Shown here piece after piece: positions 20,611 to 36,681 of a DNA stretch of 36,681 bases (positions are counted from its first letter, which is position 1; each line of letters starts with the position of its first letter). The translations under genes were made by a program, and so were the position numbers. A model generated the notes under the pieces. It searched no databases. It had not been told where the DNA came from and worked only from the letters and a program-made list of their open reading frames with translations. The stretch lies in assembly GCA_016779265.1 (NCBI GenBank), contig JADHNY010000031.1, forward strand, positions 1-36,681. The letters are read 5' to 3'. This DNA is from Pirellulales bacterium (GTDB lineage Bacteria > Planctomycetota > Planctomycetia > Pirellulales > UBA1268).

Positions 20611-22497
20611 TTAGAACGCGGTCTCTGCAGGCTCGAGGATCGCTTCCTTCGAATCGCTCTCAGCATTTTGTGGGGCCGGGAACGCGCGGCTCGGGTCGAG
20701 GCCAGCTGCGTCTGCATGCGATGACAGTGTCGTACTCAAAGCCGGCCAAGTCCTTTCTCGTAAGGAATCAGGGGCCCAAGCCCAGATTCGAGCTCGGACG
20801 AGCACGGGGTTGGCTTCCTGCTTCATGGCGCTCTCAAACGACGCGTCGACGAGTTCGGGAAATGGAGGAAGCCGAGCCTCTTTATTGACGGTCGCGTTCG
20901 ATAGCGAAGATTCCCCATACCGCCTGTCATAGATATCGAACGCGATTTTGACAAACCGGTTGAAGGTGTCGAGCCTCCCCTTGGCGAGTCCGTCGAGCAT
21001 CGCCCGTTGGACCATGGCATCAAGAAACTGACGTGTGTTGGAAACATCAATGTCCATTACAGAACTCAGGCGTAGAGCAAGAAAGCCCTCGAGTCCTTCG
21101 CTATACAGCGGCTGATTTCCTCTCCCGCTGCCCTCGGCAATTTTTTTTGCTTTCGCGAAGCAGCCCGTTGCCTGGGCTTCGTCACCGTAGAGAAACGAGA
21201 AAACCGTTGCTTCGTGGAGAAAACTTTCATATCCATCGAGGAGATCTGCCATCTCAGCCCTGCCAAACTCGCCGGCCGAAACGCCCCCAGCTGAGTTCAT
21301 GAGGCGAACCGCCTCCTGCATCCCTCGCTCGTAGCCATCGATGAATCGCGGATCTGGAAGAATGTCGATCCGGTCAGCGAGTGGGTCAAACTCAATCCGG
21401 CCGGTCCTCATCAACTGACGGAGGGTAATCAACCTGGTGCGGATCGCCATCAGTTCATTCACGTCCTCACGGCGAAGCATCTCCTGACTGAGGCTGAGCG
21501 CTAACTCAGACCAGTAAATACCATGGGCATTCGGGTGCGCCCAATCGAGGGGGCCATACCTCTCCATCTGCTCAAGCATGAACCCAGGGTCCATGTGATA
21601 GCGATCGATAAGGAGGCGTTTCTGTAAATGTGGAACGATGACCTCAAAGATTGTGCTGGCCTCCGCAGGGTTTTCGAGCAGACTGCCCAAAAGCTCTCGG
21701 TTTGTACCGCTTGGAAGGACGTTGCCCTCTCGAATTTTGGCATCGATGGAGCCAGTGTAGAGGATGACTCTTCCTAGCATTCTCAGAAGCTTTTCGTCTG
21801 GTTGTTCGCCGTGGTTTGAGAGAACGGCAATGGCAGCCTCAACAGCCGGATCGTTGTTGAGCTCATTTAGCGAATCAGCTGCATCAACAATCTTTCGAAA
21901 GCGTTCGAGTGCATCCTCGGTTGATCTACCGCCGGTGGTATCGCCGAGAGCTTCTCTAAACTCCCGAGCAAGTCTTGCTTTGTAATACCAGTGCTCTCGG
22001 TCCAGTTTGCCGCCAATCTTATGGAAGAAAATCCAAGAAAGCTCTGACGGAAGCCGGGCATCCTTGGGATTCAGAGGAATGCCACGGGACCGAAGCAGTT
22101 CGACACCGCGAGTGATCCATCCCCAACGTTCCTCAGGCAGAGCAGTCGTGACAGATATGTTGTAGGCAAGGTTCCAGGCTTGGAATGCCCATACTTTAGG
22201 GAAGCGGGGCTGGAGTGCTGTGATCCATTGGCTGATGGTCTGAGCCTCGAAAAACTGTCCGCTATCCTGCAAGGCATCTGCGCGAGCCCACAAAAAGTCG
22301 ACAGCAAGGCCCCGGAATGTTCCCAGGGCAGCAGTTGTTAAGGCGACGTTGGGGGGCATTCCGCGAGTGCCCGCCATTGAGACGACGAGGTCGAGTTCTT
22401 GTCTTTGGCTTGCGATAGATCGGCTAGTGAAAGAAGCCGCCGACATGCTTGCCAACAAAACAATGCATGCAATGACCTCAACGATACGATCCGGCAT
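20611..22497 (-). CDS. Secreted or anchored TPR-like protein of an ABC operon
   Basis: This is a 628-residue protein with one N-terminal hydrophobic helix (VIACIVLLASMSAASFTS, about residues 7-24); the rest is predicted outside the cytoplasm and helical. The part LGTFRGLAVDFLWARADALQ, then QWITALQPRFPKVWAFQAWNLAYNISV, reads like a degenerate tetratricopeptide solenoid. I associate this sequence type with planctomycete genomes, next to an ABC-2 permease. It follows the permease gene by 12 bp and is last in the cluster. A role as periplasmic partner of the transporter is inference from position. The C-terminus (last 40 residues) is low-complexity. Confidence 0.8.
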   Translation of the reverse strand: MPDRIVEVIACIVLLASMSAASFTSRSIASQRQELDLVVSMAGTRGMPPNVALTTAALGTFRGLAVDFLWARADALQDSGQFFEAQTISQWITALQPRFPKVWAFQAWNLAYNISVTTALPEERWGWITRGVELLRSRGIPLNPKDARLPSELSWIFFHKIGGKLDREHWYYKARLAREFREALGDTTGGRSTEDALERFRKIVDAADSLNELNNDPAVEAAIAVLSNHGEQPDEKLLRMLGRVILYTGSIDAKIREGNVLPSGTNRELLGSLLENPAEASTIFEVIVPHLQKRLLIDRYHMDPGFMLEQMERYGPLDWAHPNAHGIYWSELALSLSQEMLRREDVNELMAIRTRLITLRQLMRTGRIEFDPLADRIDILPDPRFIDGYERGMQEAVRLMNSAGGVSAGEFGRAEMADLLDGYESFLHEATVFSFLYGDEAQATGCFAKAKKIAEGSGRGNQPLYSEGLEGFLALRLSSVMDIDVSNTRQFLDAMVQRAMLDGLAKGRLDTFNRFVKIAFDIYDRRYGESSLSNATVNKEARLPPFPELVDASFESAMKQEANPVLVRARIWAWAPDSLRERTWPALSTTLSSHADAAGLDPSRAFPAPQNAESDSKEAILEPAETAF

Positions 22498-22509
22498 GAC
22501 GATGCTCGC

Positions 22510-24555
22510 TCAAGTAGTCGAGGGGAGGAGGTCACGCCGGGCAAGTCCTGCCCAGCCGACCAAGCCAAATCCGAGAGGATAAGCGACGCCTATGAGCGCA
22601 CAACAAGCGACAAGGTCGTTTAGCGGAAAGAGAAGGCCATTTGCGACGCTTCCGATGGCGTCGTAGTTGGAAAACGCTGGCAGGATGGCAAGAACAAAGT
22701 CAGTCACAAATCCTAAGAGCATTCTCCCTGCTTCGTAGAAGCGGCCAGAAAGAAAGAGTTCCCATGCGGCGGACATCCGCCCCATCACGACCCCGAGAAA
22801 ACTGCCTGCGGCAATATTGTACTGCATCAGTGCGTCACGTATGAAGCCGCTGCCCATCGCGCCAAAATAAATAGAAAGTGCAAGTAGGAGTGCCGTGGAA
22901 GAGCCAAGGAAGCTTGCGGCAGCAATGCTGGCTGCGGCGACCAGCGAAAGCTTCATCCATATTACAGCAAGGCATTTGAGAACGTTGCCTCGGAAACTCC
23001 CTGCTCGGTACAAAAGGCGAAGCCCGTCTCCTGGTGAAAAGGTAATTGCACTTGGGATGGTTGCTCCCGCGGAAACGAGGTTCTTGTTCTCGAACGTGAT
23101 CTCAAGGTTGCCTTCTTCATCGATCACATCGGGTGGCAGACTAAAAATGTGGTCTGCCTGACTTGGGAGCGTTTGCGCGAGATGAACGCCATCCTGCATT
23201 GGCCATGGTCTGCCATTGAGCCACATGGCAAATCTCACCTCAGCGAGGTCGATCTCAACGTTATTGACTCGTGGCTTCAGCTGGAGTTGAAGTGGTGCGT
23301 TCCGTGCCTTTGCGGACTCTAAGTTATGGAAAACGTAGGTGGATACCATGTCTGGAGCGACGGTGTGCCAGGCCCAATCGTATTCGAAACGAACACGACT
23401 TCTAGCAGCGGCCGGGTTATTGCGAAAGTAGTCAGGGGCATCCTGTTCGAGTTTGTTGATTGCAGCTTCGATTGCTTGTTCACGCTCAGTTGGACTAGCA
23501 GGTGACGGGGTAACCGCAGTCCGCGCGGCGAGAATGTGCTGGTCGACGGCTTCACGATCAATAGCATCCGTCGCTTGAGTTCCGGCTAAGGTTTTGGCGA
23601 ACGTGTAGGTGCCTATGCCCGTAAGCCCAACGAGTATGAAGTTAAAAATCATCACGCCGAGCCATTTGCCAAGCAGGTATTCCCAACGCTGAAGCGGCTT
23701 TGCGAGCGTCATGTGAATGCGAAAAGATTCGATATCGCCACAAATACTGCTGCTTGTAAATACGATTGTCAGGAGTGATAGAATCAGGCTCGCGGAACCG
23801 AGGGACCAGGAGAGAAAAAACTGAACGCGGTACTCAAGCCGTTCGGTGTGATCAAGTGCGAGCGGGAGCGTGGGGATGAGAACGACAAGAAGCACAAGTA
23901 AGAGAAGAGCGGCCCGCATGCGGACAGCCTCATCGATGGTGACGCGTGCAACCGCGAAGGTTCCGTTAGGGGACGAGAGGAGTGCGCGGACGCCTGCAAG
24001 GCCGGCGAAACAACCGATTACCATGCCTGTAATGCCGGTAAATGCAGTTGCTAAGAGAAGTTGATCGTGCCTCGCGAGAAACGCGATGACTGCTGCGACG
24101 CCCGCAGTGCTCGTGAGCCAGGTCGCCAGTGGCCGGAGTTGTGGCGTGGACGAAAATGCCCTCCACGCGTGTCGGCCTGCGGCGGCAGCTGCAAAACCTA
24201 AAAAAAGTGTGCCGAGCGAGACACTGCCGAGCCGCACAGCAGCCTCTGCTGCAAGCTGGCCTGCCAGCAGAATGCTTAAAAACAATCCGGTGTGTCGCAG
24301 TGCCGATTCATTGCTGTTTTGCACAAAGAGGCCATGTGCCGAGATCGTTATGGCCAAGAAAAGCGTTGTGTAGCGAAGGGCATCGGCGGCCGATTTGCCT
24401 GCCTGGACTTCGAGGAGATGGGAAGCTGCCAGCCCAATAGCCGCAACAGCCACGAGCCAGATCAGGCTGCTGCGGAGATGAGGCCAAGAGATAAACTGGT
24501 TTCTCTGCCGTCGAGTCGTCACGATCTGCGTCGTTGAAGAGCTCATTTCAGTCAT
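22510..24555 (-). CDS. Large ABC-2 type permease
   Basis: The protein has 681 residues. The N-terminal third has about six hydrophobic helices. A further two-helix unit leads to the ABC-2 cytoplasmic signature SICGDIESFRIHMTLAKPLQ then RWEYLLGKWLGVMIFN. An extracytoplasmic insertion of about 190 residues follows (about 350-530), with soluble sequence including ARSRVRFEYDWAW and LEITFENKNLVSAG. The C-terminal part has four more helices. Because the N-terminal block is additional to a normal ABC-2 permease, this is an extended version. The gene overlaps the ATPase gene by 4 bp (ATGA at 24552-24555), so the pair is almost certainly one transporter. Confidence 0.9.
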   Translation of the reverse strand: MTEMSSSTTQIVTTRRQRNQFISWPHLRSSLIWLVAVAAIGLAASHLLEVQAGKSAADALRYTTLFLAITISAHGLFVQNSNESALRHTGLFLSILLAGQLAAEAAVRLGSVSLGTLFLGFAAAAAGRHAWRAFSSTPQLRPLATWLTSTAGVAAVIAFLARHDQLLLATAFTGITGMVIGCFAGLAGVRALLSSPNGTFAVARVTIDEAVRMRAALLLLVLLVVLIPTLPLALDHTERLEYRVQFFLSWSLGSASLILSLLTIVFTSSSICGDIESFRIHMTLAKPLQRWEYLLGKWLGVMIFNFILVGLTGIGTYTFAKTLAGTQATDAIDREAVDQHILAARTAVTPSPASPTEREQAIEAAINKLEQDAPDYFRNNPAAARSRVRFEYDWAWHTVAPDMVSTYVFHNLESAKARNAPLQLQLKPRVNNVEIDLAEVRFAMWLNGRPWPMQDGVHLAQTLPSQADHIFSLPPDVIDEEGNLEITFENKNLVSAGATIPSAITFSPGDGLRLLYRAGSFRGNVLKCLAVIWMKLSLVAAASIAAASFLGSSTALLLALSIYFGAMGSGFIRDALMQYNIAAGSFLGVVMGRMSAAWELFLSGRFYEAGRMLLGFVTDFVLAILPAFSNYDAIGSVANGLLFPLNDLVACCALIGVAYPLGFGLVGWAGLARRDLLPSTT

Positions 24556-25592
24556 CGCCTTGTCAAGCTCTCCAGCAGGTCTGTATCGACATCGTGCGCT
24601 GGACCGCCATCTGTGGGAGTTGCAGCGGGCGCGGACCTTGGAACTACGTCAGCTACGACAGTGTCCTTCAGGAAGTCGGCGACGCCACTCGTTGCGGCAG
24701 CCCCGCTCGTCTGAAGGCCCTCTGCTCGTGCTTTCTCAACAATTTCAACAAAAAGCGCTTCCATCCGTCTTCGGGGCTGGTCGACTTCTACTGTTTGAGC
24801 ACCCCGCTCTTTGAGAAGGCTGCAAACCTCCGCGATGACACTGTCAGAGAGGGCGGAGGTCTGTATCGTTGTTTGATCAGTGCGGGTAAGGAGGTCTTCA
24901 CAAGTGCCTTCGGCGCGGACTTTACCGCCAAACATTATTGCAACGCGGTCGCACAAGTCCTCAACGTCAGAGAGTTGGTGTGTGCAGAGAAGAACGGTCT
25001 TGCCACGCCTTCCAAGATCCATGATGAGATCTTTGATTTGCCTTGCTGCGACAGGGTCCATGCCACTTGTTGGCTCGTCGAGAATCAATAACTGGGGGTC
25101 GTTGATAAGGCTCTGCGCAAGCCCGACGCGTCGCTGCATGCCTTTCGAAAATTCTCCGACCGGGCGATGTTCGACCGCATCAAGACCAACCATTTCCAGT
25201 AGACGATCAACTCGCTCGTTACGTACTTTTCTAGGGAGCTTAAAGAGCCGCCCATAGTAGTCGAGGGTTTCGCGGGCAGAGAGAAAGCGGTAGAGGTAAC
25301 TCTCCTCCGGCAGGTATCCCACATGCTTCTTGATGGCCACGTCACGCGGACTCTTGCCGAGGACTGCAACTCTTCCGGAACTTGGAGTCAGAAGCCCGAG
25401 CAGCATTTTGATCGTGGTGCTTTTTCCCGACCCATTTGGACCGAGCAGCCCGTAGATCTGTCCACGGCGGATCTCAAGGTCGATGCCTTCAACAGCGCGG
25501 ACTCGCGGCCGCATCCAGAAGTCACGGAAGGTTTTTCGCAGGTCAACGCATTTAACGTCAATGCCCTCAGCGGCATCCATATGAATCACCAT
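24552..25592 (-). CDS. ABC transporter ATP-binding protein
   Basis: This is a 346-residue ABC ATPase. Walker A is GPNGSGKST, followed by VGYLPEESYLYRFLSARETL, the signature FSKGMQRRVGLAQSL, Walker B LLILDEPTSGMDP and the switch histidine in LLCTHQLSDVEDL. After the nucleotide domain comes a C-terminal extension of about 110 residues, with a predicted alpha/beta part (SVIAEVCSLLKERGAQTVEV) and an Ala/Pro/Thr-rich tail. It drives the permease that overlaps its stop and possibly also the divergent permease at 30061. ATG 25592 shares one base with the upstream SPFH stop (TAATG); ATG 25580 is an alternative. Confidence 0.94.
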   Translation of the reverse strand: MVIHMDAAEGIDVKCVDLRKTFRDFWMRPRVRAVEGIDLEIRRGQIYGLLGPNGSGKSTTIKMLLGLLTPSSGRVAVLGKSPRDVAIKKHVGYLPEESYLYRFLSARETLDYYGRLFKLPRKVRNERVDRLLEMVGLDAVEHRPVGEFSKGMQRRVGLAQSLINDPQLLILDEPTSGMDPVAARQIKDLIMDLGRRGKTVLLCTHQLSDVEDLCDRVAIMFGGKVRAEGTCEDLLTRTDQTTIQTSALSDSVIAEVCSLLKERGAQTVEVDQPRRRMEALFVEIVEKARAEGLQTSGAAATSGVADFLKDTVVADVVPRSAPAATPTDGGPAHDVDTDLLESLTRR

Positions 25593-26842
25593 TAGTTGAA
25601 CTCTGCCTGACGCTGCTTTAACGCCTCGATTTGGGATTTCTGTCGGTCTTGCTGGATTTGGGGATCGCGATTTATTTGTAACTCAAGCCGTCCGTCAAGC
25701 GTGTAGAATGTTTCAACATCACCCGTCAGTATTCGTTCGCGGGCGTCTTCCCAAAGCCTCGAGAGAATGATTCGTGGATTCTTCTCAAACTGAGGTAGGA
25801 GCCGTTCGAATACTTCACGGTCGCCTTTTACGGCTTCAACGACCTGCGTTCGATAGGTGCGAGCAGAATTGATGCTCTCGGCCACCAGCCCACCGATTGA
25901 AATGTTGTTGACAGTAAGAGTGTCAAACACCTCTTTAAGTTTTTGCTCGGACACAGCAATCTCCGAGCTCGTCCCTGTTTCTCTCACTCGTTCATACTCA
26001 TCAAGGAGTGCAATTAGCGAGTCGCTGGCTTGGCCTGCCGCTTCACCCAATATTCTTGCTCGGTCTTGTTGGGCCTGAACAATCCGACGGGCGCGGTCAG
26101 TCTCAGCTGTCGTAACAGCGTCAAAGCTCGCTACAACACTCACGGGTGCAGAAACCTGATCGAGTGCGAGTTGGGTGATCTGAAGGCCACTCGCCATGGC
26201 GTCAAGTGTCTCCTGCGCAGTCGCGGTGGCCACCTCACGATTGACAAGACCCTTGAGAAGATCATCGGCTGGAAGCTGCGCTATAGCTCGGATAATTCCC
26301 TGGGCTACGATGCACTTGATGAGTTGGTCGGCAAGCTCACGCTGACCCACGTTAGTAACATAGGCGACGGGATCACCAACAATGTATGTGATCGTCCATT
26401 GTGCGTGCGCTACATTAACATCACCGGTGAGCAATGAGCCGTCTCTCATCGGATTCAGCGGTCCCGCCCGCGTATTTCGAATCTGATCGCGTGTGGTCCC
26501 TCGCTCGTTCATTCCGGTCTCATACCAGAAGTCTTTATCAAGCTTCAGGGTGTTTGGGCGGGTGTCAACTTTGATGACTTGCTCGATGGGGAATGGTGCG
26601 GCAAAGTAAGTGCCCCTTTCGAGAACGCGTTCTCCTGGCGCACCAACATAGTTGCCAAACCGAAGGCGTAGAGCTACCTCGTTTGAGCCGACGCTGAAGA
26701 CGCCACTAAACGCGTACGCAAACACGGCGGCCAGCATTGCAAACTTCAGGACGGTAAAACTGACCGCGAGGGCGTCAGCCAGCGACTGCTGCGCTGGATC
26801 AAGTTCTGGGGCGGTGTCCAGGACGGGCTCGGCGTCACTCAT
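25592..26842 (-). CDS. SPFH (band 7) protein, HflK/HflC-like
   Basis: This is a 416-residue protein with a 30-residue acidic cytoplasmic start, one helix (about residues 31-48, LKFAMLAAVFAYAFSGVF) and an SPFH domain from GSNEVALRLRFGNYVGAPG onward. The central part has ELADQLIKCIVAQGIIRAIAQ and IVQAQQDRARILGEAAGQA, the alpha-helical stretch following SPFH in HflK/HflC. SPFH proteins form large ring scaffolds in membranes; HflK and HflC cage the FtsH protease in E. coli. No FtsH gene is in this window. Its start overlaps the preceding HflC-like gene (ATGA at 26839-26842), with GGAG 8 nt upstream. Confidence 0.9.
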   Translation of the reverse strand: MSDAEPVLDTAPELDPAQQSLADALAVSFTVLKFAMLAAVFAYAFSGVFSVGSNEVALRLRFGNYVGAPGERVLERGTYFAAPFPIEQVIKVDTRPNTLKLDKDFWYETGMNERGTTRDQIRNTRAGPLNPMRDGSLLTGDVNVAHAQWTITYIVGDPVAYVTNVGQRELADQLIKCIVAQGIIRAIAQLPADDLLKGLVNREVATATAQETLDAMASGLQITQLALDQVSAPVSVVASFDAVTTAETDRARRIVQAQQDRARILGEAAGQASDSLIALLDEYERVRETGTSSEIAVSEQKLKEVFDTLTVNNISIGGLVAESINSARTYRTQVVEAVKGDREVFERLLPQFEKNPRIILSRLWEDARERILTGDVETFYTLDGRLELQINRDPQIQQDRQKSQIEALKQRQAEFN

Positions 26843-27801
26843 TGAGGAGTCTCCGGAAGACTCGCCGCAGGAATGCCGCCTTGCCGAACTTGTTGTGACC
26901 GCGTTCCCTGGTTTGCTCCAGGGTCGTTGTTAAACCAATCGAGGATTCCAAGGCTATCGGCAGAGAGAACGAATGTCGTGTTGTGGTCAAGCATCTTTTC
27001 TAACGCCTGTACTTTACGGAGAAAGATGGCAAAGTCCTCATTGAGTGCAAAACTGTCGTATTCTTGAGATGCCTCGCGATCGCCCTCGGAGCGAATCGTT
27101 TGCGCTCGCCGTTCTGCAAATGCGAGGATTCGGTCGCGTGCGCTTTGAGCCTCGCTGCGAATGGCGGATGCTTGTGCCTGGCCTTCCTGGAGAGCATTCT
27201 CGGCGAGCCTCTCACGGGTTGCGATCATTGTCTCAAAGACTTTTTCTGTTGTTGCCTCGGGTAGAACGAGTTTGTAGAGGCCAACGCTTTCGACCTTAAT
27301 GCCGTACTGTGTTTCCGCAAGAGATGCTTCGATTGCTTTCCTCGCCTCTTCCTCGATGGTTTCGAGCATGAGTTTCGAGCGATCTAGGTTGACAAGCTCA
27401 TCGAGTCTGAAGCGACTAATAACGCCACGCATTTCGCGCAGTCGAGTCGCAAGTTGGCGCTCTGCTTCAGATGGGTCTTTGAGTGTTACATAGAAATCAA
27501 GCGGATTGTCGATACGCCACGTGAGGTATGTTCGCACGATGACGCTTTTGCCGTCTGCGGTCTGAAGTTCTTCGATTTTGTCTTCGAGAAGTTGCAGCCG
27601 CTTTGAGTAGTGCGTTACTTTGTTGATCGGCCATGGTAGACGCCATTTGAGTCCTGCTGTGGTTTGCACGCTCTCGGAATCCGCCCGATCGAAGTTTGTC
27701 TTGACGGCAACCTGGTCGTACCGCACTTGGTATAAAAACATGCGGGAGAGGAGGGTGCCAGTGATAAGAATGGCGACGAGTGTGGTGAATGAGTTCTTCA
27801 T
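26839..27801 (-). CDS. HflC-like SPFH protein
   Basis: This is a 320-residue protein with one N-terminal helix (about residues 6-22) and an HflC-type SPFH domain: YQVRYDQVAVKTNFDRADSE, GLKWRLPWPINKVTHYSKRL, VIVRTYLTWRIDNPLDFYV. The helical stretch AQASAIRSEAQSARDRILAF, then AERRAQTIRSEGDREASQEY, matches the HflC pattern closely. Length and architecture agree with HflC (about 330 residues in E. coli). Adjacent genes encode two other SPFH proteins, so a hetero-oligomer is likely. The C-terminal 25 residues are Gln/Gly-rich. The upstream SPFH fusion gene ends 42 bp before the start, and I see no clear ribosome site. Confidence 0.92.
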   Translation of the reverse strand: MKNSFTTLVAILITGTLLSRMFLYQVRYDQVAVKTNFDRADSESVQTTAGLKWRLPWPINKVTHYSKRLQLLEDKIEELQTADGKSVIVRTYLTWRIDNPLDFYVTLKDPSEAERQLATRLREMRGVISRFRLDELVNLDRSKLMLETIEEEARKAIEASLAETQYGIKVESVGLYKLVLPEATTEKVFETMIATRERLAENALQEGQAQASAIRSEAQSARDRILAFAERRAQTIRSEGDREASQEYDSFALNEDFAIFLRKVQALEKMLDHNTTFVLSADSLGILDWFNNDPGANQGTRSQQVRQGGIPAASLPETPQ

Positions 27802-27843
27802 GCAGTAGTGATTCGCAATACGGCGTGTTCGTGAGGCGGCGTG

Positions 27844-29898
27844 TTAGTCACTAAGGAGCGTGTCGAGGGCTGAGGCGGAGTCGTTGAGGTCCAGTTTGAG
27901 TGTGGGCGTAGTAGTTGTGCCGGTGATGATGTATTTACGGCGGTCGGAGAGGCTTTCTGAAAGCACATCGAGAAACCGCCGAGTTCGGTAATAGAGCGGC
28001 GCGCTTTCGTGGGCAAGAAGTTCGCCTGAAAACTGTTCCAGAGAACTGCTCTCACCGACAGCCCGTTTCCACCGATAGCCTCTGGCGTTGTATATAAGTT
28101 CAGCCGCTTCGCCGCGTGCCTCCCCAAGGAGTGTTTCAATATCGAGTTCACGATTGGCGATCTGTAGACGTCGTTGGTTGGTCGAAGCAGGTGTCGTATC
28201 GTCGGCGACGTCTCTTCGTAAAGTGTCGAGTTCTAGGATGGCGGCGCTGATACGTCGGCTTCTGTCGACTGACCCCGCGACGCTTGCGAGAGTGGTGACG
28301 GCATCGCGGTGTCCCTGCTCGATCAGCGTTTGGCGTTCTTGCTGAGCCCCAATCTGGCTGTGGAATGCTCGGGCCACGTTGCCCCCAGGAGGCATCAAGG
28401 ATGTGATCGCGACACTTACGACATGCAGACCCAATCCAAAACGATCAAGGCGTTCCTGAATTGCTTGATGGAGGCCTGGTCCACCCTCAGTGCGGCCGTG
28501 GGTGAGAAGCCAGTCGAGATCATGGCTCGCAAAGAAGCGGCCCGCCTCCTGGCTGCTTACGAGACGGATGGCGTCATCAGGATCGACGGCTGCTCGTTGA
28601 AAATCGACGAGGTCACGGATTTGATACTGGACGACGACATCGGCGTGAATGAGCCCGATGTCAGCACCGTTTTCGCTCGTCGCTAAGCCTGTTGGAAAGT
28701 ACTCCATCCCAACTGTTGAGAGGCGATCGTCGGATCCAGTCCACAGAAACGCTGCCGCATTCTGCCATCGTCCGGCAGGATCGCTGGACACTGTGACCTG
28801 TTGAACTTTGCCGATCGGGAACGTAACGGAAGTTTCGAAAGGCCACGGCAGTTTGAAGTGAATGCCAGGTGGTCGAGCAGGAGGGCGGAGTTGGCCAAAT
28901 CTCAAGACGAGGCCTTGTTCGTCGGGACCGACGATGACAACTGTCGAGAGGGCGAGAAGTATGCTGCCGCCAAAAACCAGCAGAGGGGTGATCGCTCGAC
29001 CGAGAAGGAGATACAGCCAGCTTCGCGATACCTCAACACCAAACTGGTATTGAATGAGTTCGCCGACAATCTGCCCCAGCGCTTCAGGTTGTGTGAGAAG
29101 CCCGAGAAATCGACTGTCAAAGGCAGGCCGTGGAATCTCGCCTGGGCGACGCGGGCGATATGCAGAAAAAAGCTGAGTCAGAAGAATTTCTGTCCCAACA
29201 AGGATCATGAGGATGGGGACGGCCGCAGCGACAAAATGAAAAAATGCAGTGTCATCGACGACGGCGGCAACGATAGAGCCCGCAAGTATGACCGTTGCCA
29301 ACACGAAGCAGCTCATTAAGTAGCTGGCCCCACCCCGCAGTAACTGCCACGCTTTCACACGGGTGTAGCCGCTAATCCATCTCCCGGAAACAAAAGCTAC
29401 GAAGGCGATTGCTGCGGAAACAAACAGCAAGCCGATGGGATTGATGCCCTCAGCAAGCGTGGTCACTGCGGTGGGCGACTCATCTCTCATGAGGACGATG
29501 AATCGCCAGATCAACGCGACGCCAGCGAAAATTAGAAAGACTGAAACCAGAAAACTGACGCCCGAGAGCCCCCAGGTCAGAAGGTTTGCCAGTCGAGCCC
29601 GCGCTCGTTGCAGTTCGTCAGACTGTTCGCCAAATAATGCGGCAGAAGCGGCGTCCTGTGTCGCAAGTTGTTCAGAAGCCAGCGACTCACGCTTCTCGAT
29701 CCCGTACTGGTTGTAGAGGAGAACTAGCAGTACCCAGATCGGAAGCCCCCCGAGCATGTGCCAGGTTGCTGCCTGAACTGCAGGGCTTTCGGTCCAGAGG
29801 CCGAGCAGTCCCATGGCAACGGTCAACGCGATCTGAATCACGAGGCCAGCTATTGCCGCAATCGAGCCTCGGCGAAACGTTATCTGGTCGTCAGTCAT
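27844..29898 (-). CDS. Multi-spanning membrane protein fused to an HflK-like SPFH domain
   Basis: The protein has 684 residues. About seven hydrophobic helices fill residues 12-325, with a charged cytoplasmic loop (about 68-105). The SPFH domain begins at VVIVGPDEQGLVLRFGQLRP, then PGIHFKLPWPFETSVTFPIG, a normal HflK-type start, and runs to about residue 530. A helical region follows (NQRRLQIANRELDIETLLGE, ARGEAAELIYNARGYRWKRA). E. coli HflK has a single helix before SPFH, so the N-terminal block is an addition. It is the first gene of the SPFH-ABC cluster, starting 162 bp from the divergent permease gene. Residues 555-575 (RRDVADDTTPASTNQRRL) form a variable linker. Confidence 0.88.
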   Translation of the reverse strand: MTDDQITFRRGSIAAIAGLVIQIALTVAMGLLGLWTESPAVQAATWHMLGGLPIWVLLVLLYNQYGIEKRESLASEQLATQDAASAALFGEQSDELQRARARLANLLTWGLSGVSFLVSVFLIFAGVALIWRFIVLMRDESPTAVTTLAEGINPIGLLFVSAAIAFVAFVSGRWISGYTRVKAWQLLRGGASYLMSCFVLATVILAGSIVAAVVDDTAFFHFVAAAVPILMILVGTEILLTQLFSAYRPRRPGEIPRPAFDSRFLGLLTQPEALGQIVGELIQYQFGVEVSRSWLYLLLGRAITPLLVFGGSILLALSTVVIVGPDEQGLVLRFGQLRPPARPPGIHFKLPWPFETSVTFPIGKVQQVTVSSDPAGRWQNAAAFLWTGSDDRLSTVGMEYFPTGLATSENGADIGLIHADVVVQYQIRDLVDFQRAAVDPDDAIRLVSSQEAGRFFASHDLDWLLTHGRTEGGPGLHQAIQERLDRFGLGLHVVSVAITSLMPPGGNVARAFHSQIGAQQERQTLIEQGHRDAVTTLASVAGSVDRSRRISAAILELDTLRRDVADDTTPASTNQRRLQIANRELDIETLLGEARGEAAELIYNARGYRWKRAVGESSSLEQFSGELLAHESAPLYYRTRRFLDVLSESLSDRRKYIITGTTTTPTLKLDLNDSASALDTLLSD

Positions 29899-30060
29899 CG
29901 ATCACCGCTCAGTGCGTGAAGTGCGTCACAACGGCCCTCTGGCTTACGCGTGGAACTGGAAAGCCTGAGGCCACTGCTGGCAAGCATTACTTCTAATCAG
30001 CGTATGTGAGCGTTTCGTTAGCATTTGGTGTGGGCCTCGGAAGTGAGGAGTGCAGGGGAT

Positions 30061-31107
30061 ATGATGCGGAGTTCCCTATCGTTCGCAGTTCGAACGAGAA
30101 TGCCACGCATTGAAATCCCAATGACTCTTCTCTCGATCTCCCGAAACGCACTGCTTGAATCCATCAGACAGCCAGTTTTCGTTGTCCTCTTGATCGCAGG
30201 GGAACTGGCCCTCGCGCTCAATCTGAGTCTGGCAGCTTTTACTTTTGGGGAAGACGACAAACTTCTTGTAGACCTCGGATTGAGCACGCTTCTGCTCGCT
30301 GGATTGTTGTCGGCTGCCTTTACAGCCGCCAGTGTGCTCGCAAATGAAATTGAAAAACGGACGGTGTTAACGGTGGTGAGCAAGCCTGTTTCACGGGCAA
30401 CGGTAGTGCTGGGAAAGTTTCTCGGGGTCTGCGGTGCACTGGCAGTCGGTCAGTGGACTCTCTCCAGTGTGTTTCTGCTCACAGTACGCCATGGGGTTGC
30501 TGCAGATGCACGGACTGACATCGCTTTTGACATGCCAGTAATTGTTGTATCAACGCTGTTTTTTGGGCTTGCTGCGGTCTACGCTGGCCTCGCCAACTAT
30601 CTTTACCGGAGGCCTTTTCCGAGCGTCTTCACGGTAAGCACGGCAGTTGCAGCAACGGCTGCAGTAGTCACAACATGGTGCATTGAGCCCAGTTGGAGAT
30701 TCCAGAATCCATCACGTGAGTGGAATCCTCAACTTATGTTTGCCTTGGCGATGGTCTTTGAAGCAGTGCTTGTTTTGGCTGCAGTGGCGATGGCAGCTTC
30801 GACGCGTCTTGGGCAGACAGCGACGTTCTTTGTATCGCTCGGCTTTCTCCTCGCGGGTCTTGTAGGAGAGTATTTCGTCGGTCAGTTCGCGGATACGGAA
30901 AGTCTACCGAATGCAGTTCGCAACCTTACTGGGCTCTTTGTGCTCATTGTTCCAAATCTTCAGTACTTCTGGGCTGCCGATGCCCTTACGCAAGGGCATC
31001 CGATTACACCTTTTTACTTCTACACGGTCTCAGCCTATGCGTCGTTTATGATTGCGGGCATCATGAGCCTAGCGGTTTTGTTGTTTCAACGGCGTGATGT
31101 GGGTTAG
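30061..31107 (+). CDS. ABC-2 type permease, divergent from the SPFH cluster
   Basis: This is a 348-residue membrane protein with seven or more helices. The ABC-2 cytoplasmic signature is present: SVLANEIEKRTVLTVVSKPV then SRATVVLGKFLGVCGALAV, the same element as in the large permease of the facing operon. A conserved start (LLSISRNALLESIRQPVFVVLL) is typical of this permease family. There is no ATPase beside it, so it may use the one at 24552-25592. ATG 30061 is chosen with GAGGAG (30045-30050) 10 nt upstream; ATG 30064, and a TTG at 30025, are possible. The last 47 bp overlap the 3' end of the convergent P-type ATPase gene. Confidence 0.88.
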   Translation: MMRSSLSFAVRTRMPRIEIPMTLLSISRNALLESIRQPVFVVLLIAGELALALNLSLAAFTFGEDDKLLVDLGLSTLLLAGLLSAAFTAASVLANEIEKRTVLTVVSKPVSRATVVLGKFLGVCGALAVGQWTLSSVFLLTVRHGVAADARTDIAFDMPVIVVSTLFFGLAAVYAGLANYLYRRPFPSVFTVSTAVAATAAVVTTWCIEPSWRFQNPSREWNPQLMFALAMVFEAVLVLAAVAMAASTRLGQTATFFVSLGFLLAGLVGEYFVGQFADTESLPNAVRNLTGLFVLIVPNLQYFWAADALTQGHPITPFYFYTVSAYASFMIAGIMSLAVLLFQRRDVG

Positions 31108-33157
31108 ACCGCAGTCCTTTTTTTTCGGCTTCTGTCTGTTCAAGCTCTTCGCCGCAGCGGACGAGTCGCGCTGAGTTGAAGACCACGACAAGGCCACTGA
31201 CGATATGAAGAGCGGCTGCAGCGACAGGTGATACGTAGCCAGCCCCAGCCAGGAAAAGAAAACCAATTATAAACAGCCCGCCGACGATCATGTTTTGACG
31301 AATCACTGAGATTGTGCGTCTCGAAAGATCGACGAGGAATGGGATTCGATTCAGATTGCTGTTGAGCAGTGCGATACTGGCGGAATGAATGGCAACGTCG
31401 CTACCCGCCGCCCCCATTGCGATCGATATGTCACCCGCCGCCAGAGCAGGGGCGTCGTTTACACCGTCGCCGATGACAGCCACCCGGTGCCCGCGGGCTT
31501 TCAGTTCGTCGACCATTTCCAGTTTCTCGTGTGGCAAAACCTCAGCCTTAAACTCCTTGAAATGCATTTGGGACGCGACTCGTTTGGCCACACTCGCACG
31601 ATCTCCGGTGAGGATCACCAAGCGGTCGATGCCTTGGGCTCTCAGGCGATCAACAGCTTCTGCAGCTTCTGGGCGGGCGTTGTCTTCCAAGCCAATCCAG
31701 CCGACGAGTTTTCCGTCAGACACCACAAACAGCACGCTAAGGCCATCTGCTTCGGGGCTGCTTTGGATGTCTGTGACGAGCTGAGCTTCGGCTGTCGAAA
31801 GCACAGATTCATCATGCAGTAGCCAACTGGATCGTCCCACCAGGAGCGTGTGTCCATCGCTGACCGCTTTCACACCTCGGCCTGCAACTTCTTCAAAACT
31901 TTGTGGCCTGGCGAGAGGGAGGTTTGCGCGGCGAGCCATATCGGTAACTGCCTTCGCAACGGGATGCCGGCTGTCTTGTTCTGCGGTGGCAGCGAGTGAA
32001 AGGAGCTCTGCCGGTTCCACGCCATCGACTGGTGCAAGGCGACTTACTGACAGGATGCCTGTCGTAAGGGTTCCTGTTTTGTCAAACACGACAGCTGTGA
32101 GATTACGTGCCGCCTCGAGGGTGACAACGCTCTTCACTAAAACACCAAGCCTTGCAGCAGCTGATAAAGCTGCCACCATTGCGGTCGGTGTTGCCAGGAT
32201 AAGCGCGCTGGGGCAAGCGACCACCAGCATGGCGATCGCGCGACTAAATGCCGTGTCGGGATCGCTGCGAAGGGCAAAAAAAAGTACCACGCAAACAAGC
32301 ATGAGCACCGTGGGGACGTACCACGCGGCGTACTGATCAACAAGCCGCATGATAGGACTTCGGGTCTGTTCGGCCTGCAGGATAAGCTCTTTCACTCGAC
32401 CAAGAAGCGTATCGGCTCCCGCTTTTGTGACCTCAATGTCGAGCACTCCGGTGAGATTAATGGTTCCTCCGAAGGCTTCATCTCCAACCACTTTGTCGAC
32501 GGGTAGTGATTCGCCAGTAATGCTCGCCTGGTTCACCGTGCTGGTGCCTGTCAGCACTCGACCGTCGGCAGGGATGTTGTCACCAGGGCGAACCCGAACG
32601 ATATCACCCGGTCGGAGTTCTTTTGCGTCGATCAGGTCCTCGCTGTCCCCAGCCTCGGTTGGGGAATGGCTGCCGGGCGACAAACGGAGGCGAGATGCCT
32701 TGGTCGGGGTAAGTTTGATCAACGACTCAATGCTTGCGGCGGCTCCAATCGCGGTTCGTTTTTCGATCAGGCCCGAAACAATCATGAAGAGAGCTATGGC
32801 ACCACTCTCTTGATAGTTGCCTGTGGCTGCTGCGGCGATGACCGCAAGGGCGACGAGTGCGTTCATGCCAGCTTCGCCGCGGAGAAGGTCTTTGATTGCT
32901 GCGGCCGCGAGAGGTAAGCCGAGTAAAAGCACAGCTGTAGCCGCAGGGGCAGCGGAATGAAAAGACGTTTTCCAAAGCAAATGCGCCACTAAAGAGCAAA
33001 CGAGCAGTGTTGCCCCAATAAGTGTGGCTGTGATCTGGATCCGTAGCCCTCGCTCGCGGGTTGAGTGTGGGGCTTCAGGTTCTGGGAGTGAAGCGGTGAC
33101 TGCCCCGACGGCTCTTGCGTCGTTTTCACCGGTCATGCTGGCAGAGATACTTCCCAT
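31061..33157 (-). CDS. P1B-type heavy-metal ATPase with CPS motif
   Basis: This is a 698-residue metal-transporting P-type ATPase. Motifs by residue: TGES 214-217, CPS 315-317 in the metal-site helix (VVACPSALILATPTA), phosphorylation loop DKTGT 359-363, the His-Pro pair 398-399 (DSRHPVAKA), and GDGVNDAP 563-570. There is no N-terminal HMA domain (no GMTCXXC); the first 40 residues are low-complexity. Copper and zinc/cadmium pumps normally have CPC. In the last helix pair the sequence is HIVSGLVVVFNSARL, where zinc/cobalt-type members usually have HEXG. The metal is therefore uncertain. The start at 33157 has no clear ribosome site; ATG 33136 is an alternative. The gene is between unrelated neighbours on the lower-GC part of the window. 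Confidence 0.93.
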   Translation of the reverse strand: MGSISASMTGENDARAVGAVTASLPEPEAPHSTRERGLRIQITATLIGATLLVCSLVAHLLWKTSFHSAAPAATAVLLLGLPLAAAAIKDLLRGEAGMNALVALAVIAAAATGNYQESGAIALFMIVSGLIEKRTAIGAAASIESLIKLTPTKASRLRLSPGSHSPTEAGDSEDLIDAKELRPGDIVRVRPGDNIPADGRVLTGTSTVNQASITGESLPVDKVVGDEAFGGTINLTGVLDIEVTKAGADTLLGRVKELILQAEQTRSPIMRLVDQYAAWYVPTVLMLVCVVLFFALRSDPDTAFSRAIAMLVVACPSALILATPTAMVAALSAAARLGVLVKSVVTLEAARNLTAVVFDKTGTLTTGILSVSRLAPVDGVEPAELLSLAATAEQDSRHPVAKAVTDMARRANLPLARPQSFEEVAGRGVKAVSDGHTLLVGRSSWLLHDESVLSTAEAQLVTDIQSSPEADGLSVLFVVSDGKLVGWIGLEDNARPEAAEAVDRLRAQGIDRLVILTGDRASVAKRVASQMHFKEFKAEVLPHEKLEMVDELKARGHRVAVIGDGVNDAPALAAGDISIAMGAAGSDVAIHSASIALLNSNLNRIPFLVDLSRRTISVIRQNMIVGGLFIIGFLFLAGAGYVSPVAAAALHIVSGLVVVFNSARLVRCGEELEQTEAEKKGLRSNPHHAVETTKPLGS

Positions 33158-33193
33158 AGTTTCAAGAGTCTTAAGGTGAACGGTGAAAGCAGC

Positions 33194-33235
33194 AAAAATT
33201 TAAAAACCGTGGCCACCCATGTAGGGTGGCCACGG
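33194..33235 (-). terminator. Strong intrinsic terminator after the prepilin-like pair
   Basis: A perfect 12-bp stem (CCGTGGCCACCC, 33207-33218, with GGGTGGCCACGG, 33224-33235) with a 5-nt loop lies 29 bp after the stop of the 33265-34440 gene. On the - strand it is followed by TTTTTAAATTTTT. It also insulates the P-type ATPase gene, which starts 37 bp further on. Confidence 0.92.
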
Positions 33236-33264
33236 CTCCGGAATAGAGATTGCGGGAGCAAGGA

Positions 33265-34440
33265 CTATTGCTCGTTTACACTGCCCGCAGCCGACTGGCG
33301 GTTACGAAGCCGCTTGATCCAGATCTTGTCGGTGATCTCTTGATACGATGGACCGTCGATGGCAACCGCAGTGATTTTACCGTTGCCATCGCGTGCTACG
33401 CCATTGCCGATAAAACCGTCATAAAGAGCACCGGTGCTCGTGCCATTGTAGGCCACAGTGTCGGCAATCTTCTCAACGTGCCCGTCAGCAAACAGCACTG
33501 GAGCGTATCCACCGCCTCCAGTATTGTCCTTCGGCTGATGAAGAGGTTCGATATCGCCAAACTCGTGCACCTTCTTGCCATTGGCACCACCGAGGGTAGT
33601 GTCTTCAAACGGCACATTCATGCCGTCGTTGAAGCTCTCGACGAGAAGATCATTCACCTTAACGATCTGCTGGCCTGCAAAGTCGTTCATGATCTGAGCG
33701 ACGGCTCCATAACCCGTAGCAGGGCTGTTCGCGGTGTTGCCCGGACCAACCAACGCGTCGAGACCGTCACCGGCTCGAGCAGGTCCCATCAAAGCCACGC
33801 GGGCAGCACTGGTAAGGCCCTGAGCAAGGTGGTTCTCGGAAAGAGGACCGTCGCCATCCACCGGCAGTTTCTTGTTGGAAGCGTATCCATCCACAGCAGT
33901 CGGATCGCCGCGGCTGAAGTGCCAAGTGGTGGCGTAGTTAGTGTTGTAGCCATTCTGCCAGACTTCCTTGGCCTTCTGGTCACCACCAAAGTATGTCTCG
34001 CCTGTGTGCGAGAAGCCCGTGCCGGCTGGCCAAGGCCCTGGCGTGGAGTCGTCCACTTCCTTTGCAGAGTTCCCTGTCGCTCCCATGTAGTCGCCGACTT
34101 TTTCACTAATCTTATTGCGGCTGCCCGCATCGAGAGCTTGGCCGGGAACTGAGACCTTGAGATCAATCAGGTCAGCAACCCAGCCGACTTGCCGGATGTC
34201 GCCATCACGGTTGTGATCGAACGCCGCGGAACACATCTTGCCGTCGTTCTGAGAGGCGTAGATCGTAAAACCACGGCCAAATCCAGACATGTTACTAATA
34301 CTGGCGCTGGCATTTGCTGATGCTCGAGCAGCTGCGAGCGATGGCAGCAGCAATGCCGCCAAAACTCCAATGATGGAAATAACCACAAGAAGTTCGACAA
34401 GCGTAAAGCCGCCACGAACTTTCTGCCAACGGATAGACAT
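33265..34440 (-). CDS. Prepilin-like protein (N-methylation site, LFADGHV motif)
   Basis: The protein has 391 residues. The leader MSIRWQKVRGG is followed by FTLVELLVVISIIGVLAALL, a textbook class III (type IV pilin/pseudopilin) signal with cleavage after Gly11 and Glu at mature position 5. The globular part is large for a pseudopilin and contains WHFSRGDPTAVDGY and, near the C-terminus, GGGGYAPVLFADGHVEKIAD, the DG element common in planctomycete prepilin-like proteins. It ends with DGPSYQEITDKIWIKRLRNR. It is a clear paralogue of the upstream gene (34567-35859), sharing the leader junction, SRGDP, GDGPLS/GSGPLS, ALMGPARA, LHQPK and LFADGHV. GGAG lies 6 nt before the ATG. Function (surface fibre, matrix or secretion) is unknown. 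Confidence 0.93.
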   Translation of the reverse strand: MSIRWQKVRGGFTLVELLVVISIIGVLAALLLPSLAAARASANASASISNMSGFGRGFTIYASQNDGKMCSAAFDHNRDGDIRQVGWVADLIDLKVSVPGQALDAGSRNKISEKVGDYMGATGNSAKEVDDSTPGPWPAGTGFSHTGETYFGGDQKAKEVWQNGYNTNYATTWHFSRGDPTAVDGYASNKKLPVDGDGPLSENHLAQGLTSAARVALMGPARAGDGLDALVGPGNTANSPATGYGAVAQIMNDFAGQQIVKVNDLLVESFNDGMNVPFEDTTLGGANGKKVHEFGDIEPLHQPKDNTGGGGYAPVLFADGHVEKIADTVAYNGTSTGALYDGFIGNGVARDGNGKITAVAIDGPSYQEITDKIWIKRLRNRQSAAGSVNEQ

Positions 34441-34468
34441 TTAAAACTCCATTTAAACTCGGGGCTAA

Positions 34469-34496
34469 GCAGGCAGGAAGAAAATTTTCTGCCTGC
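34469..34496 (-). other. Hairpin in the leader between the two prepilin-like genes
   Basis: GCAGGCAG (34469-34476) pairs perfectly with CTGCCTGC (34489-34496) around a 12-nt A/T-rich loop. No T-run follows on the - strand, so termination is unlikely. It sits about 30 nt before the downstream start and could be a processing or stabilising structure that sets the ratio of the two proteins. Confidence 0.5.
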
Positions 34497-34566
34497 GTAC
34501 AAAATACGGCGGCCGTGTTAGGGGATTGTGTGTGGCTTGTGAGGAATCTGCGAGAAACTGTTGGGC

Positions 34567-35859
34567 TTATTCGAGCACGCTTCCTCCAGGGCGTTGCAGC
34601 GGAAGGAGGCGTTTGAGCCAAATTGAGTCGGCGGCTTCTTGATAGCTGGGACCATCAAGCGTGTGGTCGACGATGATGCCACTGGTATTGGCGACGACGC
34701 CGTTGCCGAGAAAACTGTCTCCGGGGCTCGGGTCGTCAGGTTGTCCGACAGTGACGGTGTCGTAGACGCGTGCGACGTGGCCGTCAGCGAAAAGAATCGG
34801 GGCGAAGCCGCCTCCCCCATGACTCTTCGGCTGGTGGAGTGGGTGGATGTCGGAGAGTTCGTGGATCTTGCGGCCCGGACCACCACCAAGTGCTGGATCG
34901 TCGAAGACGACATTCATCCCATCAGTCAGCGTATCGAGGAGGAAGTCATTTGGTCTGACAAGCTGAAATCCAACAAAGCCATTAACGACATCGTCTGCCA
35001 CGCCTGCTCGTAATCGCCGCGTGGCGTCACGAACCCTGTATGAAGGGCCTTCAGCGGCTCGAGCTGGGCCCATGAGTGCGATGCGAGCCGCGGTTGTGCG
35101 AGCCGCGGCCAGGTCCCCTGTCGAAAGGGGGCCGCTGCCTTCCGCCGGTGAGCGAACTTTACTGCCGTAGCCTGGATAGTCGGGGTCAAGGTTGGCGACA
35201 GGGTCTCCCCGGCTGAAGTGCCAAGTCGTCGCAAAAGCCGTGTTGAATCCGGCATTCCAGACCTCGTTCATCGCGTTGACGCTTCCGAAAAAGCGTTGGC
35301 CGGAGATGTCATCGTACGTTTGAGATGCCGTCCACCCATTGTCCGAGCCATCCACAAGAGGCGCTGCGCCGAGTCGAGCCGCGCCGGCATAGTCAGCAAC
35401 CGTTTCGCTGACATGCCAAGTGTTTGCTGGGTCAAGAGCTTTCCCTGGCGAAGTGATTTTATTGCCGATGGTGTCCGCGACCCAGCCGCGTCTGCGGATA
35501 TCACCATCTCGGAGATGGTCGAATGCTCCGGTCGACAGCCGGCCCGAGGTGTCTTCATTTGCATGCACGACAAAACCGCGACCAAAAGTTGAAAGATGGC
35601 TGGTCGCTGTGGCTGCGTTCGCGGAAGATCGCGCTGCGGAGAGGGCCGGTAAGAGGATCGCTGCGAGCACGCCGATGATCGATATCACAACGAGGAGTTC
35701 AACCAGCGTAAATCCACCACGACGGTTACGCAGTGGCTGTGAGCATCTGACGGGACCGCTCCGCTTTCCGAGCCAGAAACCGAACGGTTGACGGTTGGAA
35801 GCGGCGCGAAATGAGCGGCTTGTTTCGATGCTGGATGTGTGGACGCGGTATGCGGACAT
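34567..35859 (-). CDS. Prepilin-like protein with 49-residue leader
   Basis: This 430-residue paralogue of the neighbour has GGFTLVELLVVISIIGVLAA followed by ILLPALSAARSSANAATATS, then WHFSRGDPVANLDPDYPG, LHQPKSHGGGGFAPILFADGHV and DGPSYQEAADSIWLKRLLP. Cleavage after Gly49 would remove an unusually long, Arg/Ser-rich leader. No ATG, GTG or TTG codon occurs in frame between 35859 and the cleavage site, so the long leader is not a start-choice artefact unless a rare codon is used. ATG 35859 has GAGG 5 nt upstream; ATG 35955 and 36036 would make it even longer. It is 126 bp upstream of the second prepilin-like gene with no terminator between, so the two probably share a transcript. Confidence 0.9.
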   Translation of the reverse strand: MSAYRVHTSSIETSRSFRAASNRQPFGFWLGKRSGPVRCSQPLRNRRGGFTLVELLVVISIIGVLAAILLPALSAARSSANAATATSHLSTFGRGFVVHANEDTSGRLSTGAFDHLRDGDIRRRGWVADTIGNKITSPGKALDPANTWHVSETVADYAGAARLGAAPLVDGSDNGWTASQTYDDISGQRFFGSVNAMNEVWNAGFNTAFATTWHFSRGDPVANLDPDYPGYGSKVRSPAEGSGPLSTGDLAAARTTAARIALMGPARAAEGPSYRVRDATRRLRAGVADDVVNGFVGFQLVRPNDFLLDTLTDGMNVVFDDPALGGGPGRKIHELSDIHPLHQPKSHGGGGFAPILFADGHVARVYDTVTVGQPDDPSPGDSFLGNGVVANTSGIIVDHTLDGPSYQEAADSIWLKRLLPLQRPGGSVLE

Positions 35860-36316
35860 GGCATCCTCATCGAGGGTTGCAAAATCATGAGTCGCACCCC
35901 CGGCATGCAATGCCGCGAGGTTGCCAACACTTTCCTCTCGAAAATATCGCCACATTGTTAGCGGCGCATTAGAGGGTTGGCGATTAGAAGAAGTCCTTTG
36001 TAGGCAGGCGGTTCGCCTTCCACCAAAGCGATGCAACGCCGATTGTTAGGCTTGCGTTAGTTCTTGGCAAACTTGTTGACAGTGGGGTTGTGATCCCTAC
36101 CATCACGAGAGTTGTTCCTGAAAAATCTCTTGCAGAGTTGCTCGTGAAGTCCTCCCGCCGCCGTTCTTTCTACACTGGTGAGCACTGCTCACTTGTTTGT
36201 AGGCGAGTGGTTGAGTGAAACGAGCTGGGCCTCCTTGTTCGCTGGTTTGAGCGAGCGCCAGAGAGGTCGCTTTCGGTTGTCCCCATGAATGGCTGAGTTG
36301 CTGCGCGGTGATCGCA
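35860..36316. other. Upstream region of the prepilin-like operon, no clear gene
   Basis: I see no confident gene here. The - strand has CTAACAAT twice (near 35955 and 36045), and TTGCCA with a weak AACAAT box 17 bp later is a possible promoter for the prepilin-like operon. On the + strand TTGACA (36075-36080) with TACCAT 16 bp downstream could be a promoter towards the right edge. Base composition is lower in GC than in the genes. Confidence 0.4.
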
Positions 36317-36421
36317 TCACGCAGCACAGCTGCAAAGGGCACGGCCCAGATAATTTCGCTTTCGGGAAGGACAGCACGCATCTCTGCAGGGGCTCCCCGA
36401 GCAGAAGCAGTTTGTCTCCAT
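36317..36421 (-). CDS. Candidate cysteine-rich mini-protein, 34 residues
   Basis: The ATG at 36421 is preceded by AAGGAG with exactly 6 nt spacing, the best ribosome site in this end of the window. The encoded peptide has seven cysteines in 34 residues (METNCFCSGSPC, then RDACC and a CSC near the end) and a basic centre (PSRKRN), which resembles small metal-binding or disulfide-rich peptides. No family is recognised. The ribosome site overlaps the stop of the small frame before it (TAAGGAG), as in translational coupling. The short length means chance is a real possibility. Confidence 0.25.
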   Translation of the reverse strand: METNCFCSGSPCRDACCPSRKRNYLGRALCSCAA

Positions 36422-36431
36422 GTCGATCTCC

Positions 36432-36542
36432 TTAATCGCACGGGCTGCGGTCCGCGCTGCAATCTTGGCATCTGATGCCGAGGGGCGGCATGGGGCGTAC
36501 GCGGCTCGATCTCGAGGTGCTCTCTGCGAAGTCGATCTCCAT
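36432..36542 (-). CDS. Candidate small ORF with CXXC, or 3' end of a repeat protein
   Basis: The frame ends at TAA 36434-36432 and encodes MEIDFAESTSRSSRVRPM and then IRCQDCSADRSPCD, with three cysteines. 29 of 36 codons end in G or C, as expected of real genes here. The frame is open to the right through the tandem repeat (as repeated WPVSR), so it may instead be the end of a longer protein entering the window. The ATG at 36542 has no ribosome site. It competes with the + strand frame at 36490. Confidence 0.25.
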   Translation of the reverse strand: MEIDFAESTSRSSRVRPMPPLGIRCQDCSADRSPCD

Positions 36543-36681
36543 CGAGGGAGGCTGCGCAGAGACGGGCCACCTAGAGACGGGCCACCTAGAGACGGGCCAC
36601 CTAGAGACGGGCCACCTAGAGACGGGCCACCTAGAGACGGGCCACCTAGAGACGGGCCACCTAGAGACGGGCCACCTAGAG
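36490..36681 (+). CDS. Candidate start of a pentad-repeat protein running off the right edge
   Basis: The ATG at 36490 has GAGG 6 nt upstream (36480-36483), and the frame is open for 64 codons to the window end. After MGRTR the sequence falls into five-residue periods: LDLEV, LSAKS, ISIEG, GCAET, then GHLET repeated. A leucine or small residue at the central position every five residues recalls pentapeptide-repeat (quadrilateral beta-helix) proteins. The tandem units are identical in DNA, so the periodicity in that part is forced by the 15-bp repeat; only the four earlier pentads are independent support. No stop is seen. Confidence 0.3.
   Translation, partial: MGRTRLDLEVLSAKSISIEGGCAETGHLETGHLETGHLETGHLETGHLETGHLETGHLETGHLE
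36559..36681. repeat. 15-bp tandem repeat at the right edge, eight units plus partial
   Basis: Eight identical units GAGACGGGCCACCTA run from 36559 to 36678, and a ninth begins at 36679. On the + strand it can read ETGHL or DGPPR, and the third frame has a stop in each unit. On the - strand it can read WPVSR or GPSLG, and one frame has GTG...TAG in each unit. The array continues beyond the window. Confidence 0.95.

Follow-up and report, generated by a model that had tools for sequence, protein, structure and literature searches.

The membrane protein P0001, encoded within a 36,681-nucleotide stretch of DNA from a Pirellulales bacterium (hereafter the window), couples an HflK-like SPFH domain to an N-terminal block of six helices which, according to structural models, very probably adopts the membrane fold of the CDF transporters (YiiP/ZnT). 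Its gene is the first of three SPFH genes that, throughout the PVC phyla, are accompanied by P1B-type ATPases of a single clade, often together with an ABC exporter, and this gene order and co-occurrence strongly suggest that a dedicated P1B-type ATPase is its particular partner. The interpretation that we favour, somewhat above even chances, is that the three SPFH proteins may form a ring dedicated to the P1B-type pump, in which a degenerate CDF block would serve as the intramembrane anchor or coupling subunit.

Results

P0001 comprises a CDF-like six-helix domain, a linker and an HflK-like SPFH protein (27844..29898, minus strand; 684 aa), and its reading frame was confirmed at these coordinates with an ATG start and 684 open codons. 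Seven hydrophobic helices, which are also helical in the models, lie at residues 13-31, 43-61, 117-135, 152-170, 196-214, 222-240 and 306-324, as opposed to the single N-terminal helix of HflK; the Pfam Band_7 family (PF01145) matches residues 322-532 (E 4.8e-17) and the TIGR01933 hflK model residues 321-547, at 104.3 bits and hence under its equivalog cut-off of 159.4. The original prediction of an HflK-like SPFH domain behind a seven-helix N-terminal region is borne out by the helices and by a Band_7 match that begins at residue 322; its count of seven helices also stands, while the extra block itself is reduced to six helices and a linker. Helix 7 is the ordinary HflK helix adjoining the SPFH domain, so that the novelty lies in the six helices and the linker of some 60 residues.

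The protein can accordingly be divided into the CDF-fold membrane block of helices 1-6 (residues 1-257; 29128..29898, minus strand), delimited by alignment to YiiP 8f6k_B and carrying E237; a conserved linker at about residues 248-305 (28984..29157, minus strand), recognised by its consensus among P0001 relatives (YRPR...SRxLGLxAxP...YQFGFxVSxTW), by G287 and by its charge pattern; and the seventh helix with the SPFH/HflK-like part (residues 306-650; 27949..28983, minus strand), recognised by Band_7 and by HflK 9cz2_XA. Positive charges are found ahead of helix 1 and in the loops 2-3, 4-5 and 6-7, the other loops having few, which predicts a cytoplasmic N-terminus and linker and an SPFH part on the outside, as in HflK. 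P0001 is single-copy in the 3.9-Mb, 190-contig assembly, where the one other match is a 25%-identical SPFH protein on contig 36, and its nearest named matches belong to Phycisphaeraceae and other Planctomycetota at about 40% identity.

The domain in front of the SPFH part, which the original prediction had left unrecognised, can now be named by fold. An AF2 model of residues 1-330 (pLDDT 82.3, pTM 0.78) was compared with the PDB by Foldseek, and ranks 1-26 were all ZnT, YiiP or SLC30 chains with a probability of mostly 1.00; the E-values are moderate, the best being 4e-3 and none reaching 0.001. VIA-align superposed the block on YiiP 8f6k_B with Z 19.4 and an rmsd of 2.9 over 206 aligned positions (model residues 5..253), and its rows 1-35 were all CDF chains (Z at least 7.9), unrelated rows starting at 7.6. 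The full-length model (pLDDT 73.7, pTM 0.51) reproduced the match to YiiP (Z 19.3 over residues 5-253) and aligned in addition with HflK 9cz2_XA (Z 15.3, residues 301-663, 265 aligned, 20% identity), with an rmsd of 20.9 over that entire stretch, the helical arm being differently placed; by this alignment P0001 possesses the SPFH1/2 domains and helical arm of the HflK fold. Structure prediction and fold search thus agree that the block resembles the membrane domain of CDF zinc transporters. A viral structure search returned two cation-efflux proteins within its top three and was otherwise uninformative.

Profile comparisons, which do not depend on structure, point in the same direction. The 26 relatives of P0001 aligned at the outset, compared by hhalign with 30 CDF proteins of related genomes, gave a score of 42.9 and a probability of 92.9 with an alignment collinear across the six helices, and the later family alignment of 95 sequences (from which L021, identical to L020, the contig-end fragment L044 and the single-helix HflK proteins L043, L045 and L046 were left out) raised these values to 49.3 and 95.7. 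Decoys scored 1-21 against the 26 relatives and 2-18 against the 95-sequence alignment, the rhomboid decoy being no real control with one sequence gathered, and reversed CDF profiles scored 7 and 14; the block reached 36 against its own reverse, which indicates that the hydrophobic pattern alone can score. No Pfam-level match accompanies the fold: P0001 does not match Cation_efflux (PF01545), and one of the 26 relatives does so at E 0.023. The NicO nickel transporter family, weakly matched in Pfam by 2 of the 26 relatives, was discarded as a candidate on profile scores of 5.9 and 3.3, where CDF reached 42.9 and 49.3.

The metal site of CDF transporters consists of four residues in helices 2 and 5. 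In the 95-sequence alignment, with the register taken from hhalign, no D, H or C is conserved at the corresponding columns of either helix, which hold P/H/F at position 47, G/A at 51, Y/W/F at 193 and A/G/T/C at 197. Two other residues, E237 in membrane helix 6 and G287 in the linker, are each invariant (95/95 relatives). Since both models predict helices alone, and no strands, for residues 247-319, the CDF-type C-terminal domain appears to be absent. P0001 therefore shares with YiiP and ZnT/SLC30 the six-helix membrane fold and the helix order, but differs from them in its unconserved ligand positions, in the lack of a ferredoxin-like C-terminal domain in the model, in the SPFH domain attached to it and in the missing Pfam-level match; as judged from these alignments, the block is a degenerate CDF and not an ordinary one.

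The original prediction proposed that the extra domain might serve as a channel, as a receptor or as an anchor tying the SPFH ring to one membrane partner. The loss of the CDF metal ligands would best suit the anchor, and the suggested partner is the P1B-type ATPase. A different reading is that the block is a working, divergent CDF-type transporter which uses other ligands, the cassette then being a unit of two pumps for metal efflux or homeostasis, held in order by the SPFH ring. We regard this as unlikely: the CDF fold, the invariant E237, the heavy-metal family of the partner ATPase, the His-rich N-termini of some of these ATPases and the CDF gene adjoining one cassette would all suit such a transporter, but the unconserved D/H/C positions in helices 2 and 5 and the missing C-terminal domain speak against it. 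The adjoining gene, at about 10744 (minus strand) in L206, encodes a true CDF member, with 368 bits against the CDF profile, and sits immediately upstream of the SPFH genes.

The combination of seven helices with an SPFH domain recurs in Planctomycetota, Verrucomicrobia, Lentisphaerae and Bacillota and is thus not a chance fusion. The block profile matched 88 of 343 genomes in the window's phylum; in the phylum of a Verrucomicrobia locus, Lentisphaerae included, it matched 93 of 240. In Bacillota the full-length protein was present in 1 of 348 genomes, the seed genome itself, and a search for related loci added a few more Bacillota loci. Closer to the window the distribution is patchy, with P0001 in 14 of the 59 nearest genomes of its family (its own genome counted) and no homologue in the three remaining genomes of its genus. 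The G+C content of the window shifts from ~0.62 to ~0.55 near 20 kb (19500-36681), where the cassette starts; together with the absence of the gene from the three congeners, this may possibly reflect lateral gain, loss or a joined contig. Identical cassettes on short contigs of ~10.4 kb in Nostoc sp. CHAB 5715 and 5836 (L020, L021) encode a protein 79% identical to that of a Phycisphaerales locus (L022) and are probably planctomycete contamination.

The profile search for a stand-alone version of the block uncovered no convincing copy among the 88 and 93 genomes with a match. Six short frames among the 88 were rejected as candidates: a contig-end piece (G169), a split gene (G227), a copy with stops (G165) and three weak matches near E 1e-3 (G170, G314 and G390). 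The possibility that the block is a common part of HflK in many phyla, raised together with the original prediction, holds by half, as within the PVC phyla one HflK-like subfamily commonly carries it, and in Bacillota it occurs in 1 of 348 genomes. Literature searches, which lay mostly outside subscription journals, found no published description of a P0001-type fusion or cassette, and we consider the domain combination and its likely partner to be new among SPFH membrane assemblies.

In the window, P0001 is followed on the minus strand by an HflC-like SPFH protein of 320 aa, P0002 (26839..27801; Band_7 8.8e-21; 116.1 bits to TIGR01932, under the cut-off of 134.4), a second HflK-like SPFH protein of 416 aa, P0003 (25592..26842; Band_7 1.5e-17; 102.8 bits to TIGR01933), whose gene overlaps that of P0002 by 4 bases, an ABC ATPase of 346 aa, P0004 (24552..25592; ABC_tran 8.2e-34), an ABC-2-like permease of 681 aa, P0005 (22510..24555; a weak match to PF12679, E 0.007), and P0006, a 628 aa protein of no known family and with no Pfam match (20611..22497). 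The gaps from P0001 through P0006 are 42, -4, -1, -4 and 12 bases. The N-terminus of P0006 is hydrophobic. Upstream lie, on the plus strand, a divergent ABC-2-like permease ORF, P0007 (30025..31107; PF12679 at E 2.1e-4, below cut-off), listed from a TTG, so that its true start may be further in, and, on the minus strand, the P1B-type ATPase P0008 (31061..33157; 698 aa), which adjoins P0007 with a 47-base tail-to-tail overlap. P0008 scores 546.4 bits against TIGR01525, above the cut-off of 346.25, belongs to the ATPase clade described below and has the ion motif CPS, not CPC. PADLOC gave no match for six cassette proteins, and a promoter and terminator scan of the window detected nothing beyond what shuffled sequences gave.

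Other genes of the window deserve mention in their own right. Two neighbouring minus-strand genes (33265-34440 and 34567-36036) encode proteins 53% identical to each other with prepilin-like N-termini (GFTLVELLVVISIIGVLAA), which we take to be tandem planctomycete pseudopilin-type proteins, and the plus-strand genes at 2462-8093, for an ABC ATPase, a 917 aa ABC-permease-like protein and a 620 aa protein, presumably form a separate gliding-type ABC operon.

The cassette around P0001 is almost certainly conserved. Sixty regions were picked from two phylum-wide match lists, favouring long flanks, and 58 neighbourhoods remained once repeats had been dropped (L169, a repeat of L032, and L170, a repeat of L027). 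HflC was present in 55 of them, HflK in 54 and the P1B ATPase in 47 (missing from 11/58); the ABC ATPase (P0004) followed with 38/58, P0005 with 34/58, P0006 with 33/58 and P0007 with 21/58. HflC was present in all 26 of the loci L017-L042, several of which are cut by contig ends and among which L020 equals L021, and HflK in 25 of them; 16 contained the P1B ATPase and 11 the ABC ATPase. Within the window's family, where 12 of the 13 other genomes with a match were checked, the P1B ATPase lies nearby in 8/12, two others stopping at a contig edge. A recurrent neighbour of 620-690 aa, taken from its length to be FtsH, turned out to be the P1B ATPase.

These frequencies, together with the tight operon of the window and its overlaps of 1-4 bases, might be read to mean that the cassette chiefly organises an ABC exporter of an envelope substrate (P0004, P0005 and P0007 with P0006) and has the P1B ATPase as an accessory. 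Such a reading appears decidedly unlikely to us: the ABC ATPase, P0005 and P0006 do accompany a good many neighbourhoods (38, 34 and 33 of 58), but Bacillota and several divergent planctomycete-side loci keep the ATPase without the ABC genes, and at many divergent loci the cassette has shrunk to the three SPFH genes plus the P1B ATPase.

A tree of 101 ATPase sequences, rooted on a distant paralogue and leaving out L040 for its short frame, united every one of the 71 cluster members with 15 unlinked sequences in a single clade (support 0.949), outside which fell 15 other sampled ATPase paralogues of the same genomes. The unlinked sequences come from 14 of 18 genomes in which the SPFH gene was observed with no adjacent ATPase; these 14 carry a member of the clade elsewhere, and none was detected in the other four. 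In three of the 14 (G835, G928 and G859) it is the first SPFH gene that has been relocated, and HflC, HflK, P1B and ABC genes stay together elsewhere. The catalytic motifs are retained throughout (DKTGT in 72/72 cluster ATPases, GDG[VI]ND in 71/71 with the residues present), as opposed to the ion motif, which among the 72 reads CPC in 43, CPS in 10, CPV in 6, CPG in 5, SPV and LPC in 3 each, and TPC and VPA in 1 each. With CPC lost in 29/72, P0008 with its CPS among them, the engine is retained while the ion site drifts, which weakens a simple metal-export story. The ATPases of three Verrucomicrobia loci (L028, L030 and L040) have SPV for CPC, an ion motif without cysteine, next to an intact DKTGT. 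Some cluster ATPases have His-rich N-termini. P0008 thus resembles the P1B-type heavy-metal ATPases in scoring far above the TIGR01525 cut-off and in retaining DKTGT and GDG[VI]ND, whereas the cassette ATPases differ from them by forming a separate clade with a terminal NSARLVR-like signature, by the loss of CPC in 29/72 and by the SPFH genes alongside.

HflK/C surrounds FtsH (PMC12624060). FtsH could be a partner of the SPFH trio as well. The cassette resembles the E. coli HflK/HflC-FtsH system in its SPFH fold, in the N-terminal helix before it and in its tandem hflK/hflC-like genes; it differs in having three SPFH subunits, six extra CDF-like helices and P1B ATPase (often also ABC) genes in place of ftsH, and the window's proteins score under the hflK and hflC equivalog cut-offs. 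The genome contains other Band_7 proteins, with an adjacent pair on contig 36 and a single one on contig 149, and encodes FtsH twice, on contigs 137 and 9, so that the SPFH trio of the window is extra to them. P0001 might conceivably be no more than an HflK variant that modulates FtsH in the ordinary way and has a decorative anchor, next to which ATPase and ABC genes often happen to lie, as would agree with its HflK-like SPFH part and the two FtsH genes; the separate Band_7 pair, the location of both FtsH genes on other contigs and the fact that the same ATPase clade accompanies the cassette in two phyla, and co-occurs even when unlinked, make this very unlikely.

Discussion

Under the reading that we favour, a P1B-dedicated ring, P0001 would be the first subunit of a dedicated SPFH assembly with the HflC-like P0002 and the HflK-like P0003, and the three would assemble, like HflK/C, into a ring or dome seated on the outside of the cytoplasmic membrane. 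This ring may surround or hold the P1B ATPase, replacing FtsH or in addition to it; the CDF-derived block, equipped with the conserved cytoplasmic linker and the invariant E237, would be an intramembrane anchor or coupling subunit, recruiting the pump and shaping the ring, and would not act as a classic zinc antiporter. Whatever leaves the pump at the membrane surface would then be under the control of the SPFH ring. That the SPFH trio and the P1B ATPase form a physical complex is fairly probable in view of gene order and co-occurrence; the chances that the block is mainly an anchor or coupling unit appear evenly balanced, and for pumps that retain CPC the substrate is probably a metal ion.

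A bolder version, which we deem quite unlikely, is a caged pump in which the P1B ATPase, enclosed in a membrane-sealed dome of three SPFH subunits, drives an ion into or through the chamber. The chamber wall would bear the repurposed CDF fold, the CDF-derived subunit forming a permeation or gating path for which the ATPase delivers the energy, in rough analogy to KdpB, which drives a channel located in another subunit. If this holds, a novel type of primary transport complex would be widespread among the PVC bacteria.

The enclosure of aquaporin-1 and UT-B by stomatin in the human erythrocyte (PMC12407830) shares with our proposal the idea of an SPFH dome around a membrane transporter. The stomatin system differs in that its transporter is separate and passive, whereas the cassette has a transporter-like fold fused to an SPFH subunit and, as the linked gene, an ATP-driven pump instead of a passive channel or transporter. 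The cassette would represent a bacterial parallel to stomatin enclosing aquaporin-1.

These findings identify a clade of P1B ATPases in which the metal motif is partly lost and the engine is intact, and they also bear on SPFH proteins at large, which are ubiquitous. A transporter-like fold within an SPFH subunit, together with genes that point to one pump, makes the question of what such a ring contains directly testable.
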